Below are positions 12,927-44,190 of a stretch of 64,000 nucleotides of DNA, piece by piece. Under the pieces are notes generated by a model. It did no database searches. It was not told the DNA's origin and was given only the letters and a program-made list of their open reading frames with translations. Position 1 is the stretch's first letter. Every line of letters begins with the position of its first letter. A program made the position numbers and the translations under genes. This stretch comes from Akkermansiaceae bacterium (GTDB taxonomy: Bacteria; Verrucomicrobiota; Verrucomicrobiia; Verrucomicrobiales; Akkermansiaceae), in NCBI GenBank assembly GCA_026421245.1, contig JAPKDJ010000002.1, forward strand, positions 1-64,000, read 5' to 3'.

Positions 12927-13853
12927 TTACTCCGCATCAGAAAGATAGCGCTCGGTTTCAATCGCAGCTGCACACCCTTGTCCGGCTGCCGTGATCGCCT
13001 GACGGTAAACGTGATCAGCAACATCTCCCGCCGCGTAAAGACCCGGAGTTTTCGTTCCGGTCCCGCGAGGATTCTGCTCAATGTAGCCATTCTCATCGAG
13101 ATCGACGAGGTCACCGACAAACTGCGAGTTTGGCACGTGGCCAATCGCCACAAAGACACATTTCACTTCGAGTTCAGACTCTTCGTCGGTCTTGAGATTT
13201 ATCAAGGTGACAGCGCGAACCTCACCTTCATCATCGGTGAGATACTCGGTGATTCCCGAGTCCCAAACCGGCTCGATCTTCTCGTTCGCAAGAACGCGGT
13301 CCGCCATGATTTTGGAAGCGCGAAGCTCATCACGACGATGGATCAAATAAACTTTGGAAGCAAAACGAGTCAGGAAGTTGGCTTCTTCACACGCGGAATC
13401 ACCTCCGCCCACAACCACGACAGGGACATCGCGATAAAAGGCTCCGTCACAAGTCGCACAAGAGGTCACCCCGTGTCCCACCAACTCCATCTCCCTTTCC
13501 AGTCCGAGGTAGCGTGGAGCTGCTCCGGTTGCGACAATCACCGTCTTCGATTGAATGGTCCCATTATCGGTGATAAGCGAGAAGGTCCCGTCATCATTCC
13601 GGGAAATTTCATTCACCTTCTTATACTCCACCTTGGCTCCAAACTTCTCGGCTTGCTTCTGCATCTGTCCCATCAGTTCGGGTCCCATCACTCCTTCCGG
13701 AAATCCCGGAAAGTTTTCCACTTCAGTCGTGGTCGTGAGCTGTCCGCCCAGCTGGGTCCCGGAAAGTACAAGAGGATTTAAATTTGCACGACCCGTGTAG
13801 ATCGCAGCCGTCCACCCGGCGCAGCCGGTTCCAATAATGACAACGTTTTCCAT
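12927..13853 (-). CDS. trxB: Thioredoxin reductase
   Basis: Flavoprotein that reduces thioredoxin with NADPH. The FAD-binding GxGxxG is at residues 8-13 in the form GTGCAG, where the usual Pro is replaced by Cys. The redox pair is CATC in [12 protein letters not shown] (about residue 133). The NADPH motif is [13 protein letters not shown], and the C-terminal FAD motif is [17 protein letters not shown]. Length 308 is typical. It is transcribed alone, downstream of ftsH on the same strand with about 50 bases between them. Confidence 0.93.
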
Positions 13854-17474: not shown

Positions 17475-17506
17475 TAAAAAACACCAGGAGCGAACTCCTA
17501 GTGTTT
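17475..17506 (-). terminator. Intrinsic terminator of the UGA-containing gene
   Basis: Read on the minus strand: AACAC, A, AGGAG, 4-base loop, CTCCT, one mismatch, GTGTT followed by TTTTT. It lies about 25 bases after the stop of the thioredoxin-like gene at 17531. A proper terminator placed here supports the view that the transcript running through the internal TGA is a real unit. Confidence 0.75.
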
Positions 17507-17530
17507 CGAGAATCTGACGATTGAAAAAAA

Positions 17531-17926
17531 CTACTTCTTCGCCTCGAGCTTGGCGACGACAGCGTTGACTTCCTTTTTCCCGTAGGCGTGACCGTCGATC
17601 GTTTGGACGAGTTTTCCCTCCTTGTCGTTGGCGATGATGCCGTGGCCTTTGAGTTTGGCTTTCTTGATTTCCTCGGCGCTTTTTCCGGAGCCGACGAGGA
17701 CGTTCTTGAACACGATTTCTTTTCCTTTTGTCTTTTTAAGATCATTCACGATGACCGCTATTTTTGCACACAGCGGTCATCCGTCGAAATAGTAGTAGGT
17801 GAGCGTGGGCAGCTTGGCTTCGGCGGGCTTCTCGGCGACGGGAGTCTGGGGCTCCACCGCGGAAAGCGTCTTGATCATAAGGATGGGAGCGAGAGCCGCC
17901 GCCATCCAGAATATGGATTTTCTCAT
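17531..17926 (-). CDS. Candidate exported thioredoxin-fold selenoprotein (in-frame UGA, U-x-x-C)
   Basis: From the ATG at 17926 one frame encodes a leader (MRKSIFWMAAALAPILMIKT, cleavage near LSA-V), a Pro/Glu linker and the strand LTYYYFDG. It then meets TGA at 17779-17777 and continues without another stop: PLCAKIAVI, then VNDLKKTKGKEIVFKNVLVG, and a C-terminal beta-beta-alpha unit (HGIIANDKEGKLVQTIDGHA, then KKEVNAVVAKLEAK) to TAA at 17531. Reading TGA as Sec gives 131 residues with the redox pair U50-P-L-C53 exactly where thioredoxin folds have CxxC, at the end of strand 1. The part after TGA has no convincing start of its own (a GTG at 17749 without Shine-Dalgarno), and the part before it lacks the fold's body. 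Two RNA hairpins overlap the site. Alternative: a Cys codon (TGC/TGT) mutated to TGA, or a sequencing error. No selA/B/C/D gene is in the window. Confidence 0.6.
17740..17781 (-). promoter_or_regulatory. SECIS-like stem-loop(s) at the in-frame UGA
   Basis: Two exclusive structures are visible in the minus-strand RNA. (a) A 10-bp perfect inverted repeat, GATGACCGCT (17781-17772, containing the UGA) with AGCGGTCATC (17759-17750), and a 12-base loop. (b) A 6-bp stem GGUCAU/AUGAUC (17756-17740) with a 5-base loop CGUGA, the loop beginning 27 bases after the UGA. From memory, bacterial SECIS elements have an apical loop about 16-37 bases after UGA with a G in its first two positions. Structure (b) meets this and structure (a) does not. 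Either may form. Confidence 0.4.
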
Positions 17927-18127
17927 CGCGGGGAAGGTTAGCATCCGAAAACGGCATGACAATACCGGAAGGGGAAGTTTTTCAGTTTCCAACCTTGGGG
18001 GGGTGGAAGTTGCCATGGATTGCGCGCCCGACTTATTTGCCCCGCAAGTCCTTCATCCCCTCTCCGAGAAAAAACTCCGGCGCCTACAAGAAACCCCGGT
18101 GTTGATTGAATGCAGGATCGGTTAGAC
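17927..18127. other. Region upstream of the UGA-containing gene
   Basis: About 200 bases without a supported gene. A short plus-strand frame ending at 18125 (RRLQETPVLIECRIG) has no recognisable features. The promoter for the minus-strand gene should be here, but no clear -35/-10 pair stands out. Confidence 0.3.
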
Positions 18128-31204: not shown

Positions 31205-34200
31205 GTGAGAATTCCTTCTTATTTACTCATTCTCAGTACCACACCCGTGTGGGCTGGTTTCTCCCCTCTCTTCAAGATCGGCTCTGACGACAACTCATCC
31301 GGAGAGTTCACAACGGAGAATGTCACGTCGGACCCGGCACCTGGAAATCCTGCCGAACTGGATGATCACTACTATCTAAAAGGAACCTATCCTAGGCCGA
31401 TTGGAGTTCTCGCTGATGATGAACTGATTGCCAATTTCGAGCATGCTCTCACCTCCCGTGATCCTTCCAACGTCATTCATTTCAATCTTGATACTGGACA
31501 GGCGACCAACACCGGCCTCTTTCGTGTCTCAGCGGACTTTCTCTGGAGTGGCACAAGCGGAGGAGCGCGGTTCGAGAATGTGATCGAAATCAGCGTGAAT
31601 GGAAAACCGGCATCATTCACCAGCGCACCTTTTCAAAACCACACGGTTATCCATACCGAGTTTTCCACAAACGGGCTCGACCTTATCGACGGTGCCAACA
31701 CCCTCGAAATTAGGCGCACTGGCACCACCTCAAGCACTTGGCTTGGAATCGATCAGATCAAAGCCTCCCTTGATCCGACAGCCTTTGTCGATGCCGATTC
31801 CGATTCGCTTCCCCTCTACTGGGAAGAACTCTATCACTTTTCGGATACCAACAACAGCGACGCAGCGGGTGACCTTGATGGCGATTCCTTGAGTAATCGC
31901 ACGGAGTTTCAAAACGGCACGAATCCCCGACTTGCTGACACGGACGGTGATGGCTTAACCGACCAGAACGAAACCGTGAGTGATCCTCTTGATCCTGACT
32001 CTGACGACGATGGCTTGCTTGACGGAGAAGAAACCAATTCCAGCCCTATTCTGGTCGATACCGATTCGGATGGAGCCTCCGACGCCTGGGAAATTCAGAC
32101 AGGTTACGATCCTGATGATGACCAAAGTACTCCACCTTTGTGGGCAGGTGCCATTGGCGTGAACTTCCGATCTGAAAAGTATCCCAAACTCGGAACCTGG
32201 CCTGTCGGTTTTCCAAACGGATTTGTTCCTCAAATTAACTGGAACCAAACCGACCTCCTTGAAGATAAAGGAGTCTCTTCGGGATCGCCCCTCCGCCCCG
32301 GCGACACCTCTGACATCCTCTCACCGCTCGCAGGAACCTTGGTTGATTCATCGGGGGCACCCACCGCAGTAAGCATCGCATTCACTGCCGACGGTGTTCG
32401 AAGCACCCGGGTCTACGAGACCGCTGCAGCGAATCTGCTGAATGGCTATATTTCGGCTGATTCAGGAACTCCGGCAACCCTTCAGATTGCCAATATCCCG
32501 ACCTCCTTCGCGACCTATGATGTTTATGTTTACATGGCGACGACCTATCGAGGACGGCTTGCGACCCTGAGAAGGGACCGGCAGTTTTTGGACCAGGCTC
32601 TTCTGCGTCCGATTTCCTCGGGAGGCGACCTTGAATTCAAACTCTTCCGCCCCTCAACCGGGCCCGCCGCCCCGCTCGCCAACGTGGTCCGATATACCGG
32701 TCTCATTGCCCGGTCGTTTTCATTGGAGAGCTTCCGTACCAGTAACAGCTCATCAGGCATTGCCGGGATTCAGATTATCAATACCAGTGGCGATAACGAT
32801 CTCGATACAATCCCAGACTGGTGGGAAATCAAGCATCGCTCGGATGTCACCGCGAACGCCGACCCGGATGGAGATGGACTGGATTGGCTCGCCGAATTTA
32901 ACGCCGGAAGTGATCCCAGGCTTGCGGACACCGACGATGACGGGCTTGACGACGCCGCAGAAGTCGCCGCTGGTACAGACGTCACTTTTGCGGACAGCGA
33001 TGGCGACGGGCTCTCGGACTACGAAGAGCTTAACCACTCTCTCGCCAGTGATCCGACCCTCGCAGACACCGATCGCGATGGCGTCGATGACGCCATCGAA
33101 AAAGCGAACTTTTCAGATCCAAACGACGCCAACTTCACTCGTCTTCCTGTTCCCTCCTATCCTTCCGCAACCCAAGTTCTGTGGGAAGCCACCGATCTTC
33201 AATTCGTCAACAACCATGGCGATGGCATCCGAAGTGATGGCGGAATCGACCGGGACTTCATCGACTGGCGGGTCGATAACCTCACCGCCGGAGTGAGCAA
33301 TGCCCTTCGAATTCGTCTTCCCCGAAGGTCCGGCAAGATTGTCTTCAACGTCATTACCAGCGAACAGGGAAGCTTTCGTAAGAATGGCCGCCGGCTCAAC
33401 TACAGTAACTACAACACGGACCTCACCTCTGCGCTGGGATTCGCAGGGTTTGGCTCTTGTGATACCTCCGACCCGCTGACTTTCCGGATTGAGGCCAATG
33501 ATGATGGAAGCTCGGAAATGAATTGGACTGTCGTCTTTTCGATCATCAACCAGAAGACAGGCCTCACCGTGGCTACCCGCACCTTCACCAAATGCGATGC
33601 CATTTCAAACGTGGCTGATCAATCTGCAGTTTGGGGAGACGACAGCGTCCCGGGTGAATCCCAGATGTTGCTGGGGCAGGGAATATCGCTCTATCGGACG
33701 ACAACTCCCGTGCATCAGCTTACGGGTTTGAATCACTGCGCCGACGCCGACAACGACGGCATGAGTGACACCTTTGAAACAACATACGGCCTAAATCCCA
33801 ACGATACTTCTGATGCCGCATTGGACGGTGATAGCGACGGCCTCACCAACGTGATCGAAGCAATCCTTGGAACGGATCCCACCGACGCTGATACCGACAA
33901 TGACGGTGTCAGTGACAGCATTGAAGCCGATCAATTCACCGACCCTAACTCAGACCTCTCAACGCCTCCCCTCTTCAACCTGACTAGCGTGGGAGATTCC
34001 GACCTCAATGGAAACGGCATGTCCGATCTTTGGGAATCCCACTTTAGCGCTCAGGCACTACTTCCAGGGGGAGACCAGGATAGCGACGGACTGACAAATT
34101 TGGAGGAAGCGGGATTGGGAACCGACCCTTTTGATGCGGCGTCAAATTTCAGAATTCGCACCGCGCCTTCGGCAACACCCGACGCATTTGACTTCTTCTA

Positions 34201-36151
34201 CGCCCGCCTCGTTCTTAAGAACCAGACGATACAATCATCGACCGATCTGGGAACCTTCAATCATTCTTCATTGATTTCCTCTCTGATTGGCGCCGAATAC
34301 AAAGTCACCGCTCCCTTTGATTTAAGTCGCGAGTTCTTTCGTGTGGCTGTCGAAGATCGTGACCTCGATTCGGATGGCTTGAGCGATTGGGATGAAAGCA
34401 TTTTGGGGTCCTCCTCTAGCCTTGCAAATTCGCTGGCAAGATCTGTTGCTTTCGACAACACCGGCGATGGCGTTCCTGATGGTGCGATTTCGGGCGACCA
34501 AGCGGTCTTCCTTGAGCGCTTCGCCAACCGATCAACCCTCGCGGCAGGAACAGGAAGCGCCACTCCAACGCGCACCGAAGCAGCCAGATTGCTCATGCAA
34601 GGCACCTTTGGTCCAACAATGGAAGAAGTGCAAAAAGTGCGGGCGACGGGAATTGAAGCCTGGCTTGATGACCAAATTCAAAACCAACCTCAAACCCATC
34701 ACGAAGACTACATTCGTGAGATCCAAGCCGACCTGAATGGTCCTCGGGTTGACCTCAGCTATCTTTACAACAATGACGAAGACAATGTCAAAGAGCATAA
34801 TCTTCAGTCAGCCTTCGCCCGCGCCGCCATTTCCGGACCGGACCAACTCAGGCAACGGGTGGCCTTCGCTCTTTCTCAAATCCTCGTGATTTCACGTCAG
34901 GACGGAAGCATTGACCAAAATGTCCGTAGCCTTGCCCGCTACTACGACCGACTCGTGGATCATGCCTTTGGGAACTACTATGATCTCCTCATGGGCGTCA
35001 CCCTCGATCCCAATATGGGGCGTTACCTGTCTCATGTTGGAAACCTCCCTCCCGCTCCTGAGATCAATCGCTTCCCCGACGAAAACTACGCCCGGGAAGT
35101 GATGCAGCTCTTTTCCATCGGACTGTGGGAGCTCAATCAGGATGGCACTCGAAAACTCGATCACTTGGGGAAACCAATCCCCACCTATGACAATGATACC
35201 ATCACGGAACTGGCCAGGGTGATGACCGGACTGTGGTTTTCAAATAATGGCTGGGGTGCACAAACCCGCCAGGATGAGGAACACCTGGTTCCTCTCGAAA
35301 TGTTCCCCGACTACCACGATTTCGGTAAAAAGACTTTGCTCAACGGATTCATCATCCCGGCACGCCAACCCAGCGCCGAGAGCGGGATTGATGATATTCG
35401 CGATGCCATCCGCCACCTTTTCCAACACCCGAACTGCGCCCCCTTTGTTTGCAAATCGCTCATTCAACTTCTGGTCACGAGCAACCCAAACCCCGACTAT
35501 GTCGAGCGCATTGCGAACGTCTTTGACGACAACGGTCTAGGTGAGCGTGGTGATTTAAGTGCCGTGGTAAAAGCCATCATGATGGACCCCGAGGCCCGAG
35601 ATCCGGCTGTGGCCACCTCACCCGTCTTTGGTCTCTTCCGTGAACCGGTCATCCGAACCATGCACCTTGCCCGGCTTACTAAAATCAATCGCAGTGGAAA
35701 AGCCGTCTGGTGGGACTACGGAAACTACTACGATGACACTCTGCAGATGCCTCTCTACTCACCTACCGTGTTTAACTTTTATCGCCCGGACTACACTCCG
35801 CCCGGAATTCTTGATCAGGAGAATCTGGCCGGCCCGGCCTTTGAAATCACCAACTCATACACCGCAGTCTCCCTCCCCAACCGAATTTGGACGATCGCGG
35901 ATCGCGGCTTCTACATGCGTGGCCGATACCACTTCACGCCTGACTACAATGACTTCATGCCTTATCTGAGCGATTCTGACACCCTCCTGGACTACATCAA
36001 TATCGTCGTCTGTGCCGGAGGCATGCGCGCAGAAACCCGGGCCATTATTAAAACGAATCTCACTAACACCGCGCTTTCCGATCCGGTCGAAAAAGTTCGA
36101 CTCGCCGTCTACCTCGCCCTCATGTCTCCTGAAGGAGCGGTCCAACGCTAA
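31205..36151 (+). CDS. Large secreted protein: TSP3-type calcium repeats plus DUF1800
   Basis: A 1648-residue protein with GTG start and a short leader (MRIPSYLLILSTTPVWAG). An N-terminal beta-rich region (about 20-195) is followed by blocks of Asp-rich thrombospondin-type-3 repeats (DSDDDGLLDGEE, DTDGDGLTDQNE, DNDGVSDSIEAD and similar; about 195-310, 545-640, 855-990 and 1075-1110), which bind calcium. Three further unrecognised beta domains separate them. From about residue 1140 the DUF1800 domain runs to the end: LMQGTFGPTMEEV, LRQRVAFALSQILVIS, NFPDENYAREVMQLFSIGLW-type signature (here RFPDENYAREVMQLFSIGLW). Unlike many DUF1800 proteins there is no PEP-CTERM tail. The DUF1501 partner follows after 18 bases. 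Confidence 0.85.
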   Translation: MRIPSYLLILSTTPVWAGFSPLFKIGSDDNSSGEFTTENVTSDPAPGNPAELDDHYYLKGTYPRPIGVLADDELIANFEHALTSRDPSNVIHFNLDTGQATNTGLFRVSADFLWSGTSGGARFENVIEISVNGKPASFTSAPFQNHTVIHTEFSTNGLDLIDGANTLEIRRTGTTSSTWLGIDQIKASLDPTAFVDADSDSLPLYWEELYHFSDTNNSDAAGDLDGDSLSNRTEFQNGTNPRLADTDGDGLTDQNETVSDPLDPDSDDDGLLDGEETNSSPILVDTDSDGASDAWEIQTGYDPDDDQSTPPLWAGAIGVNFRSEKYPKLGTWPVGFPNGFVPQINWNQTDLLEDKGVSSGSPLRPGDTSDILSPLAGTLVDSSGAPTAVSIAFTADGVRSTRVYETAAANLLNGYISADSGTPATLQIANIPTSFATYDVYVYMATTYRGRLATLRRDRQFLDQALLRPISSGGDLEFKLFRPSTGPAAPLANVVRYTGLIARSFSLESFRTSNSSSGIAGIQIINTSGDNDLDTIPDWWEIKHRSDVTANADPDGDGLDWLAEFNAGSDPRLADTDDDGLDDAAEVAAGTDVTFADSDGDGLSDYEELNHSLASDPTLADTDRDGVDDAIEKANFSDPNDANFTRLPVPSYPSATQVLWEATDLQFVNNHGDGIRSDGGIDRDFIDWRVDNLTAGVSNALRIRLPRRSGKIVFNVITSEQGSFRKNGRRLNYSNYNTDLTSALGFAGFGSCDTSDPLTFRIEANDDGSSEMNWTVVFSIINQKTGLTVATRTFTKCDAISNVADQSAVWGDDSVPGESQMLLGQGISLYRTTTPVHQLTGLNHCADADNDGMSDTFETTYGLNPNDTSDAALDGDSDGLTNVIEAILGTDPTDADTDNDGVSDSIEADQFTDPNSDLSTPPLFNLTSVGDSDLNGNGMSDLWESHFSAQALLPGGDQDSDGLTNLEEAGLGTDPFDAASNFRIRTAPSATPDAFDFFYARLVLKNQTIQSSTDLGTFNHSSLISSLIGAEYKVTAPFDLSREFFRVAVEDRDLDSDGLSDWDESILGSSSSLANSLARSVAFDNTGDGVPDGAISGDQAVFLERFANRSTLAAGTGSATPTRTEAARLLMQGTFGPTMEEVQKVRATGIEAWLDDQIQNQPQTHHEDYIREIQADLNGPRVDLSYLYNNDEDNVKEHNLQSAFARAAISGPDQLRQRVAFALSQILVISRQDGSIDQNVRSLARYYDRLVDHAFGNYYDLLMGVTLDPNMGRYLSHVGNLPPAPEINRFPDENYAREVMQLFSIGLWELNQDGTRKLDHLGKPIPTYDNDTITELARVMTGLWFSNNGWGAQTRQDEEHLVPLEMFPDYHDFGKKTLLNGFIIPARQPSAESGIDDIRDAIRHLFQHPNCAPFVCKSLIQLLVTSNPNPDYVERIANVFDDNGLGERGDLSAVVKAIMMDPEARDPAVATSPVFGLFREPVIRTMHLARLTKINRSGKAVWWDYGNYYDDTLQMPLYSPTVFNFYRPDYTPPGILDQENLAGPAFEITNSYTAVSLPNRIWTIADRGFYMRGRYHFTPDYNDFMPYLSDSDTLLDYINIVVCAGGMRAETRAIIKTNLTNTALSDPVEKVRLAVYLALMSPEGAVQR

Positions 36152-43437: not shown

Positions 43438-44190
43438 ATGCGCATCTTCCGTATTCTCTACTTTAAGGAGCTAAAGACCTACTTTCTCACCCCTTTCGGG
43501 TGGTTGATTCTGGCCTTCGCCGCCCTCATGCAGGGGCTCATTCTTTCGACGGCCCTCAAGGGATTTTCCGACGAGGCCCAATCCGAGAGTCTCGTTTTTC
43601 TCAATTTTAATTCCCCGCTATTCTGGTTCTACTTCCTCTTTCTTTTTCCGGTGCTGACGATGCGCCTGTTTTCGGAAGAAACCCGATCGGGAACTCTTGA
43701 AGGCCTCCTCACCGCGCCTGTCCGGACCTGGCAGGTCGTGCTCTCCAAGTTCGCTGCCGCCTACACTGCGTTTTCCTTCCTTTGGATTCCTGCCTTCGTC
43801 CATTTTAAACTCTTCACCGTCTTAACTGACGTCCCTCCTCCATTCTCCAACGGAGAACTTTACGGAGCGATGATGGCAATCATGCTCATGGGGGCTCTTT
43901 TCACCGCCTTCGGCTGCCTGGCCTCCGCATTAACATCCAGTCAGATCATAGCTGGAGTCATTTGCGTCGGAATCCTCTTTATCCACTTTCTTCTAGGAAC
44001 AGTAACCACCATTTTTGGCAGCCAGATTCCCGCCGCCCCGTTCTTTGATTTCGTCTCTTCGCAAATGCACCTTCGGGACTTCACGCGCGGACTCGTCGAC
44101 TCCCGACCTCTCATTTATTACCTGTCGACTACTGCCTTCGTGATTTTCCTAACCTATCATCTTCTCGACTACCGGCGCTGGAAGCCTTGA
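43438..44190 (+). CDS. ABC-2 type permease, GldF-like
   Basis: A 250-residue permease with about six hydrophobic segments. It opens IFRILYFKELKTYFLTPFGW and contains MRLFSEETRSGTLEGLLTAPV, the conserved ABC-2 loop that meets the ATPase. It starts 12 bases after the ATPase gene and precedes the GldG-like gene by 12. Its substrate is unknown. Confidence 0.87.
   Translation: MRIFRILYFKELKTYFLTPFGWLILAFAALMQGLILSTALKGFSDEAQSESLVFLNFNSPLFWFYFLFLFPVLTMRLFSEETRSGTLEGLLTAPVRTWQVVLSKFAAAYTAFSFLWIPAFVHFKLFTVLTDVPPPFSNGELYGAMMAIMLMGALFTAFGCLASALTSSQIIAGVICVGILFIHFLLGTVTTIFGSQIPAAPFFDFVSSQMHLRDFTRGLVDSRPLIYYLSTTAFVIFLTYHLLDYRRWKP

Follow-up and report, generated by a model that had tools for sequence, protein, structure and literature searches.

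A probable new family of thioredoxin-fold selenoproteins, putatively exported, in the order Verrucomicrobiales

Introduction

Does a TGA codon in the middle of a short minus-strand reading frame of an Akkermansiaceae bacterium encode selenocysteine (Sec), or does it mark a gene in decay? The question arises at positions 17531-17926 of a stretch of 64,000 nucleotides (GenBank assembly GCA_026421245.1, contig JAPKDJ010000002.1, positions 1 to 64,000 of the forward strand), which we call the window and to which coordinates refer unless a locus is named. A reading of this stretch from the sequence alone had inferred a selenoprotein, and that inference is now supported by the Sec machinery of the genome, the conservation of the TGA, paralogues with Cys at the same site, a conserved hairpin and the predicted fold. 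Our main reading is that the gene product is a small exported thioredoxin-fold selenoprotein, to which we assign a probability of roughly 0.85. Taken by itself, the claim that the product is a real selenoprotein appears almost certain from sequence evidence, and a putative role as an exported thiol/selenol oxidoreductase seems probable. The gene would add to the known set a selenoprotein family seen in one order only.

Gene structure

As the sequence-only reading had proposed, a single minus-strand frame runs through the in-frame TGA, with 49 residues before it and 81 residues and a stop after it, so that the TGA (17779-17777) is residue 50 of a total of 131. The final stop had been given as TAA and is in fact TAG (17533-17531). 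The gene has the following features:

17531..17926, minus strand: predicted selenoprotein coding sequence with Sec at residue 50 and stop TAG, based on end-to-end homologues and selection on both sides of the TGA
17858..17926, minus strand: putative signal peptide, residues 1-23, by eye from the sequence and alignments
17777..17779, minus strand: TGA read as selenocysteine, residue 50 in U-P-L-C, based on the conserved TGA in homologues and Cys in four Cys-type paralogues
17768..17770, minus strand: codon of Cys53, the second Cys-type position of UxxC, invariant in both alignments
17478..17507, minus strand: terminator-like hairpin of 13 bp with a UUCG loop, directly 3' of the gene, from folding

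The product would start with a signal-peptide-like stretch, MRKSIFWMAAALAPILMIKTLSA, recognised by eye, and continue through a linker into LTYYYFDG-U-PLCAKIAVIVNDLKK. Upstream of the TGA the frame is already open from an ATG at 18016 (79 residues); the alignments of the 12 named homologues described below start at the Met of 17926, which supports the 131-residue reading. ORF calling splits the gene, as had been predicted for automatic annotation, into a frame terminated by the TGA and a 72-residue frame starting at GTG. The gene is present as a single copy in its own genome, and it had no match among plasmid records. A terminator had also been claimed after the stop: the 13-bp hairpin found there folds at -19.4 kcal/mol in a 60-nt fold, a stability equalled by none of 200 shuffles, and is missing from the list produced by a simple terminator scan.

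Conservation and distribution of the TGA

A scan of GTDB species genomes, with a query carrying Cys at residue 50, yielded 345 pattern matches, from which 12 relatives were confirmed (61-79% identity over at least 127 of the 131 residues), all with record titles naming Verrucomicrobiota, Verrucomicrobiales or Akkermansiaceae. Despite the Cys in the query, every one of the 12 has a TGA at the same codon. A profile search found the family in 45 of the 386 genomes sampled from the order (own genome included), and 43 of these 45 carriers have exactly one TGA, each at the active site. One of the two exceptions (L064) is truncated by a contig end, so that its site is missing; the other (L063) is a distant Cys homologue. 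The family is hence nearly always of the Sec form, in 43 of the 44 members with a readable site.

Cys forms make up a separate group. A second taxonomic family had 23 matches in 22 of 74 genomes, 19 of them with the TGA (in genomes already included in the count for the order) and four without. These four belong to a paralogous group restricted to one genus, carry C-F-L-C instead of U-x-x-C and are lipoprotein-like by eye; one genome carries both Sec and Cys forms. In a tree of 34 rows with midpoint root, the four Cys rows stand apart from the 26 Sec rows with moderate support (88/83 and 90/82). Position 50, which the sequence-only reading had left to homologues to settle as U or C, is U (TGA) in all the named relatives and in nearly all carriers, with Cys in the paralogous group. 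The locus therefore shows one of the traits used to recognise bacterial selenoproteins, an in-frame UGA at a conserved redox position together with Cys in homologues.

In a sample of the phylum the family was found in one of 387 genomes, the own genome alone. A mixed profile matched 6 of 384 genomes in a sample of the class: two, both belonging to the own genus, with Sec members, and four with weak matches, which we rejected as members and whose sequences (C-[IV]-P-C, I-P-T) look like those of ordinary exported thioredoxins. Neither sample thus held the family outside the order. Some genes occur twice in our locus sets, as a named locus and under a genome handle (the window, for example, is L033), and the hairpin and codon counts given here use distinct sequences. 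Codon 49 (17780-17782), just before the TGA, shows a synonymous freeze, being GGA in 44 of 48 rows, GGG in two, GGC in one and CAA in one.

Selection on both sides of the TGA

Among the seven near rows, pN/pS was 0.227 for the 12 codons before the TGA, 0.224 after it and 0.546 for the leader and linker; the corresponding values for all 26 rows were 0.239, 0.387 and 0.692. Substitutions at minus-strand codon positions 1, 2 and 3 numbered 992, 663 and 2037 before the TGA and 8451, 5539 and 15298 after it. Given these pN/pS values, and since third codon positions change most on either side, both halves are under selection at the protein level, and the TGA is, judged from the alignments, a conserved sense position under selection.

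Two kinds of alternative bear directly on these data. The sequence-only reading had worried that a Cys codon had mutated to TGA in a decayed gene, and it had noted decayed fragments nearby. We reject this pseudogene reading, whose probability is negligible, because the TGA is kept in the named homologues and in nearly all carriers and because purifying selection, measured as pN/pS in near relatives, is similar on its two sides. The other alternative holds that the true gene is antisense, namely a plus-strand ORF of 117 residues (17588-17941), or that the locus encodes two short separate proteins. In 28 of 56 contexts, among them the window (the same place as L033), an overlapping antisense ORF was the one retained as longest; nevertheless, before and after the conserved TGA alike the substitution pattern is that of minus-strand codons, and the predicted fold requires both halves. 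We consider both versions ruled out for practical purposes, their probability being extremely low.

Selenocysteine machinery in the genome and the order

The own genome (4.3 Mb in 192 contigs, 93.5% complete) contains all the components that the sequence-only reading had proposed to look for and that accompany bacterial selenoproteins: a tRNA-Sec with anticodon UCA (55 bits, Rfam cut-off 47), SelA (479 bits, cut-off 267.9), SelB (299.5 bits, cut-off 242) and SelD (387.8 bits, cut-off 125). In 14 known control genomes, scores above cut-off were obtained for tRNA-Sec in five, SelB in two, SelA in one and SelD in two. Across the 386 genomes of the order, SelA (E < 1e-20) was found in 42 of 45 carriers of the family vs 77 of 341 non-carriers (Fisher p 6e-21) and, in the subset with completeness of 90% or more and contamination of 5% or less, in 25 of 25 carriers vs 46 of 243 non-carriers (p 1e-16), both p-values being inflated by shared ancestry. 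Genomes G380, G230 and G217, the three carriers that lack a good SelA, are 72, 54 and 59% complete, respectively.

The SelD gene of the own genome (L018, G000:C68) has one in-frame TGA itself, at G-G-U-A-S-K; the Sec motif of SelD is listed as U-x-x-K in Table 1 of a 2026 review (PMC13188914). This TGA is followed 32 nt later by a 7-bp hairpin with loop AGUCU, an 8-bp form with loop GUC being slightly better by energy.

Two other explanations involving TGA codons in the window were discarded. Global recoding of TGA is ruled out by the 12 of 34 window ORFs of at least 250 residues that terminate in this codon. A second TGA candidate, at 44188-44190 between two same-frame genes, proved to separate ordinary neighbours, an ABC-2 membrane protein and a DUF7088 protein.

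A conserved SECIS-like hairpin

Two hairpins that share part of their sequence can be drawn at and downstream of the UGA:

17740..17756, minus strand: SECIS-like hairpin GGUCAU-CGUGA-AUGAUC, with its apical loop 26 nt after the UGA, from folding and conservation
17752..17779, minus strand: competing hairpin of 10 bp, in which the UGA and part of the SECIS-like stem are paired, -16.4 kcal/mol in the window copy

In 40 distinct 51-nt rows, the first of them consists of a 6-bp stem (mostly GGUCAU / AUGA[CU]C) and a 5-nt loop starting 26 nt past the UGA. The loop reads CGUGA in 41 of 47 rows, AGUUG in five and AGUUA in one. The bacterial SECIS model, as given in the available part of PMC13188914, has a G as first or second loop nucleotide, followed in most cases by G or U, and places the hairpin 16-37 nt after the UGA with a stem of 4-16 bp, a loop of 3-9 nt and an energy at or below -7.5 kcal/mol. 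When this published rule was applied by script, the hairpin fell within its limits for loop, distance and stem (6 bp, 5-nt loop, 26 nt), and the GU at loop positions 2 and 3 agrees with the model as described there. The SECIS scoring proposed by the sequence-only reading thus came out well for loop, distance and conservation but not for energy: in isolation, the hairpin of the window copy folds at -4.4 kcal/mol, with 23 of 200 shuffles equally stable, and in a 23-nt fold only four of 47 rows are at or below -7.5, the other 43 being weaker. We treat this value as a soft criterion, since the text of the source that was available does not specify the folded stretch. Since 537 of 3000 random 60-mers of the window also comply with the loose rule, 159 of those at -4.4 or below, it is the conservation of the hairpin that has to carry all the weight.

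This conservation is marked. Pairing in the stem is maintained in 96.7% of 240 cells, vs 14 to 47% for slid versions, and four stem cells have changed on both sides, a count reached by none of 500 shuffles; the number of pairs with two-sided change was matched in 27 of 500 shuffles and that of pair types in 122. Three of the double changes are U-A to C-G in one clade, accompanied there by the replacements V58A and D62G, and the fourth is G-C to A-U in another row, so that they probably reflect two evolutionary events. Synonymous-site identity is 0.877 in codons 58-61 vs 0.535 elsewhere. We resampled synonymous codons 300 times in 47 of the 48 rows (the one excluded contains an N) and obtained a mean pairing of 0.76 at the hairpin site and, anywhere in the 99-nt stretch, no hairpin above 0.823, vs an observed value of 0.972; codon shuffling within columns gave a mean of 0.958, and none of its 300 trials attained the observed value. 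The hairpin is conserved beyond what the protein requires, though it is weak in energy.

That weakness speaks for one further alternative, in which the UGA is read through with another amino acid by near-cognate decoding and the product is not a selenoprotein. The co-occurrence of the family with SelA, the position of the TGA where paralogues have Cys, and the presence of a conserved hairpin that fits the bacterial loop and distance rules, as far as the review sets them out, all speak against it, and we regard it as very improbable. Insertion of Sec remains by far the preferred reading.

In the window copy, folding favours the competing hairpin over the SECIS-like one; relatives share the competing pairing in part, by eye. 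A ribosome reaching the UGA would be expected to melt the competing hairpin, which could also be viewed as a possible switch. In some single folds, a lower stem lengthens the SECIS-like hairpin, in registers that differ between the two taxonomic families (by eye); we leave it out of our counts and claims. Rfam returned two matches, both far below gathering scores and neither to a SECIS family. A model of the hairpin region searched against the own genome recovered the gene itself at E 2e-15, a circular result because the window row is part of the model, and seven other sites at E 0.37 or worse; the hairpins of SelD and of DsbD (see below) were not among these matches. The same search in the window gave a like picture.

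Predicted fold and active site

A structure was predicted with AlphaFold2 from 13 sequences, with Cys in place of Sec. The model has an overall pLDDT of 72.7 and a pTM of 0.61, with low values in the leader and linker and, by block, 82-92 over residues 41 to 130 of the domain except for block 81-90 (60). The predicted order of strands (E) and helices (H) is E41-46, H51-67, E72-77, H84-89, E96-100, E106-111 and H117-129, which puts residue 50 directly before the first helix. The best Foldseek match was 3hyp (E 8.5e-6), and the best 50 of the 280 PDB matches at E 0.001 were led by thioredoxins. The sequence-only reading had placed the TGA at the first active-site Cys of a thioredoxin fold; in the predicted structure it indeed lies in a UxxC motif (U-P-L-C) at the start of helix 1 of such a fold, in the column where the paralogues have Cys.

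Besides positions 50 and 53, the residues His95, Gly96, Gly104 and His113 are invariant in both alignments, the two His in all 26 Sec rows and the four Cys paralogues:

17642..17644, minus strand: codon of the invariant His95, at about the thioredoxin cis-proline position (profile alignment, plus or minus one residue)
17588..17590, minus strand: codon of the invariant His113, just past the last predicted strand (106-111), from alignments and the predicted strand

Compared with exported thioredoxins, the cis-proline place corresponds to His95 in a global profile alignment and to the preceding residue in a local one with the mixed profile. No Pro occurs at residues 93-97 in the 26 rows of the Sec alignment or in the 12 rows of the alignment that includes the Cys paralogues, and the cis-proline that PF00085 has before the third strand is replaced by His95 or its neighbour. 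An invariant His in place of the cis-proline, beside a selenolate, would be a testable departure from the thioredoxin rule.

The same residues allow a different function to be imagined. In Sco proteins, His serves as a copper ligand. In a rival reading, the selenoprotein is a metallochaperone or scavenger whose main task would be to hold a metal ion through Sec50, Cys53 and the two invariant His, and not to exchange disulfides. The invariance of both His in Sec and Cys forms alike, without Pro at 93-97, favours this idea, as does the copper binding known for Sco proteins of the thioredoxin fold, according to the part of PMC2757866 available; on the other hand, the His are equally plausible as pKa tuners, and the Sco motif described in that source is CxxxC, not UxxC. 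We consider a mainly metal-binding role unlikely. Slightly less likely still is a more specific scheme, in which loss of the cis-proline would have opened the UxxC motif to metal and created a four-ligand selenolate site made of Sec50, Cys53, His95 (in place of the cis-proline) and the nearby His113, the protein being an exported Sec metallochaperone or a metal-dependent reductase fed by a Sec-containing DsbD. We favour the exported thiol/selenol oxidoreductase.

Genome context and a possible reducing pathway

The gene neighbourhood contains no partner common to all lineages, a hint that the gene functions independently. Two same-strand genes lie upstream, ~70-90 bases away, in 8 of the 12 named loci; in L022 (1-2927), the locus searched against Pfam, they encode DUF1553 and DUF1501 proteins, and in L100 (1881-3377) one Cys paralogue begins at the extreme end of a DUF1501 gene. 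This adjacency may be due to chance, as DUF1501 genes may be common in these genomes. In the window, a same-strand thioredoxin-reductase-like gene (12927-13853, minus strand; Pyr_redox_2, E 2.8e-48) is found further downstream, with an ftsH-like gene (named by eye) ahead of it; since neighbours are not conserved, it is probably unrelated. Another window gene (31205-36148, plus strand) encodes 1648 residues, with TSP3 repeats and, at the C terminus, a DUF1800 domain.

DsbD, a membrane protein, supplies exported proteins of the thioredoxin fold with reducing power. A single DsbD_TM match (73.7 bits) is present in the own genome, and the corresponding gene (L107, G000:C13, minus strand) contains an in-frame TGA (1203-1201 in that locus). 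In the C-terminal thioredoxin domain this TGA takes the place of the first active-site Cys, in the context A-D-W-U-A-T-C-K. Read through it, the gene encodes DsbD_N, DsbD_TM and Thioredoxin_7 in this order, each above cut-off, and a 7-bp hairpin with loop CGUGU lies 24 nt downstream. The hairpins after the TGA of DsbD (CGUGU) and SelD (AGUCU) thus both have N-G-U-N-N loops. From the sequence of this single genome, DsbD is probably a selenoprotein as well.

A possible pathway can be outlined from these elements. SelB, bound to Sec-tRNA and to the hairpin, would decode the UGA, and export across the inner membrane would be directed by the signal peptide. On the far side, Sec50 might attack, as a selenolate, a disulfide or a similar oxidised substrate, Cys53 would resolve the mixed bond, and the resulting selenenylsulfide might be re-reduced by DsbD, itself with a TGA at W-U-A-T-C. 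The invariant His at approximately the cis-proline place may tune the selenolate, as does Arg there in peroxiredoxins. We propose DsbD as the reductant, by analogy with its general role towards exported thioredoxin-fold proteins, at somewhat less than even odds. The coexistence of a protein with His for cis-proline and a TGA-interrupted DsbD would point to a reducing pathway that runs on selenium outside the inner membrane.

Comparison with known families

Prokaryotic selenoproteins fall into 119 families and subfamilies by the count of a 2026 review, several of them thioredoxin-like with UxxC (Table 1, PMC13188914). No matching family appears in this catalogue as far as its available entries can be compared, and the family was not seen among the papers listed in a search of mostly open literature. 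The window protein matched none of the NCBIfam selenoprotein models at E 1.

The closest likeness is to thioredoxin (PF00085 / TIGR01068 / NF047697), by the predicted fold, the UxxC at the start of helix 1 and weak sequence matches. NF047697 (TrxA) was the commonest NCBIfam match among the 25 of 34 families listed, found in 24 of 26 members with a best E of 3.2e-6; the window protein scores 15.3 bits against its cut-off of 140. PF00085 weakly matched 16 of the 26 members (best E 0.0015) and left the window protein unmatched at E 1, short of the gathering score. A designed thioredoxin in PDB matched in sequence at E 0.0014, and exported thioredoxins of the same class matched the family by profile. 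The Sec form of thioredoxin is also given as UxxC in Table 1 of PMC13188914. Unlike thioredoxin, the window protein is putatively exported and has an invariant His at or beside the cis-proline place, without Pro.

With DsbD the window protein shares an exported thioredoxin-fold domain with UxxC, and a TGA-interrupted DsbD exists in the same genome; yet DsbD is a large membrane protein, whereas the window protein consists of a single domain and a leader. The 'thiol:disulfide interchange protein' (PF13098, UxxC) in Table 1 of PMC13188914 may or may not equal DsbD. SaoT (NF040730), TsoX (NF045809) and DF (NF049942) are selenoprotein families that weakly matched 5, 4 and 4 of the 26 members (best E 0.0029, 0.0083 and 0.016, respectively) and did not match the window protein at E 1, which leaves it short of the curated NCBIfam cut-offs.

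Sco proteins share the thioredoxin fold with two Cys-type positions, but they are described in the available part of PMC2757866 as copper-binding with a CxxxC motif, vs UxxC here, and no Sco model was among the Pfam matches listed for the window protein and the 26 members. GOS_C (NF045500), a UxxC selenoprotein with thioredoxin-like fold from ocean metagenomes (PMC2398784), is similar in fold and motif according to the description available; it left the window protein unmatched at E 1 and was absent among the 25 of 34 NCBIfam families listed for the 26 members. Because His replaces the cis-proline, we class the protein as a variant within the thioredoxin fold, probably representing a new selenoprotein family of this fold that is distinct from thioredoxin proper.
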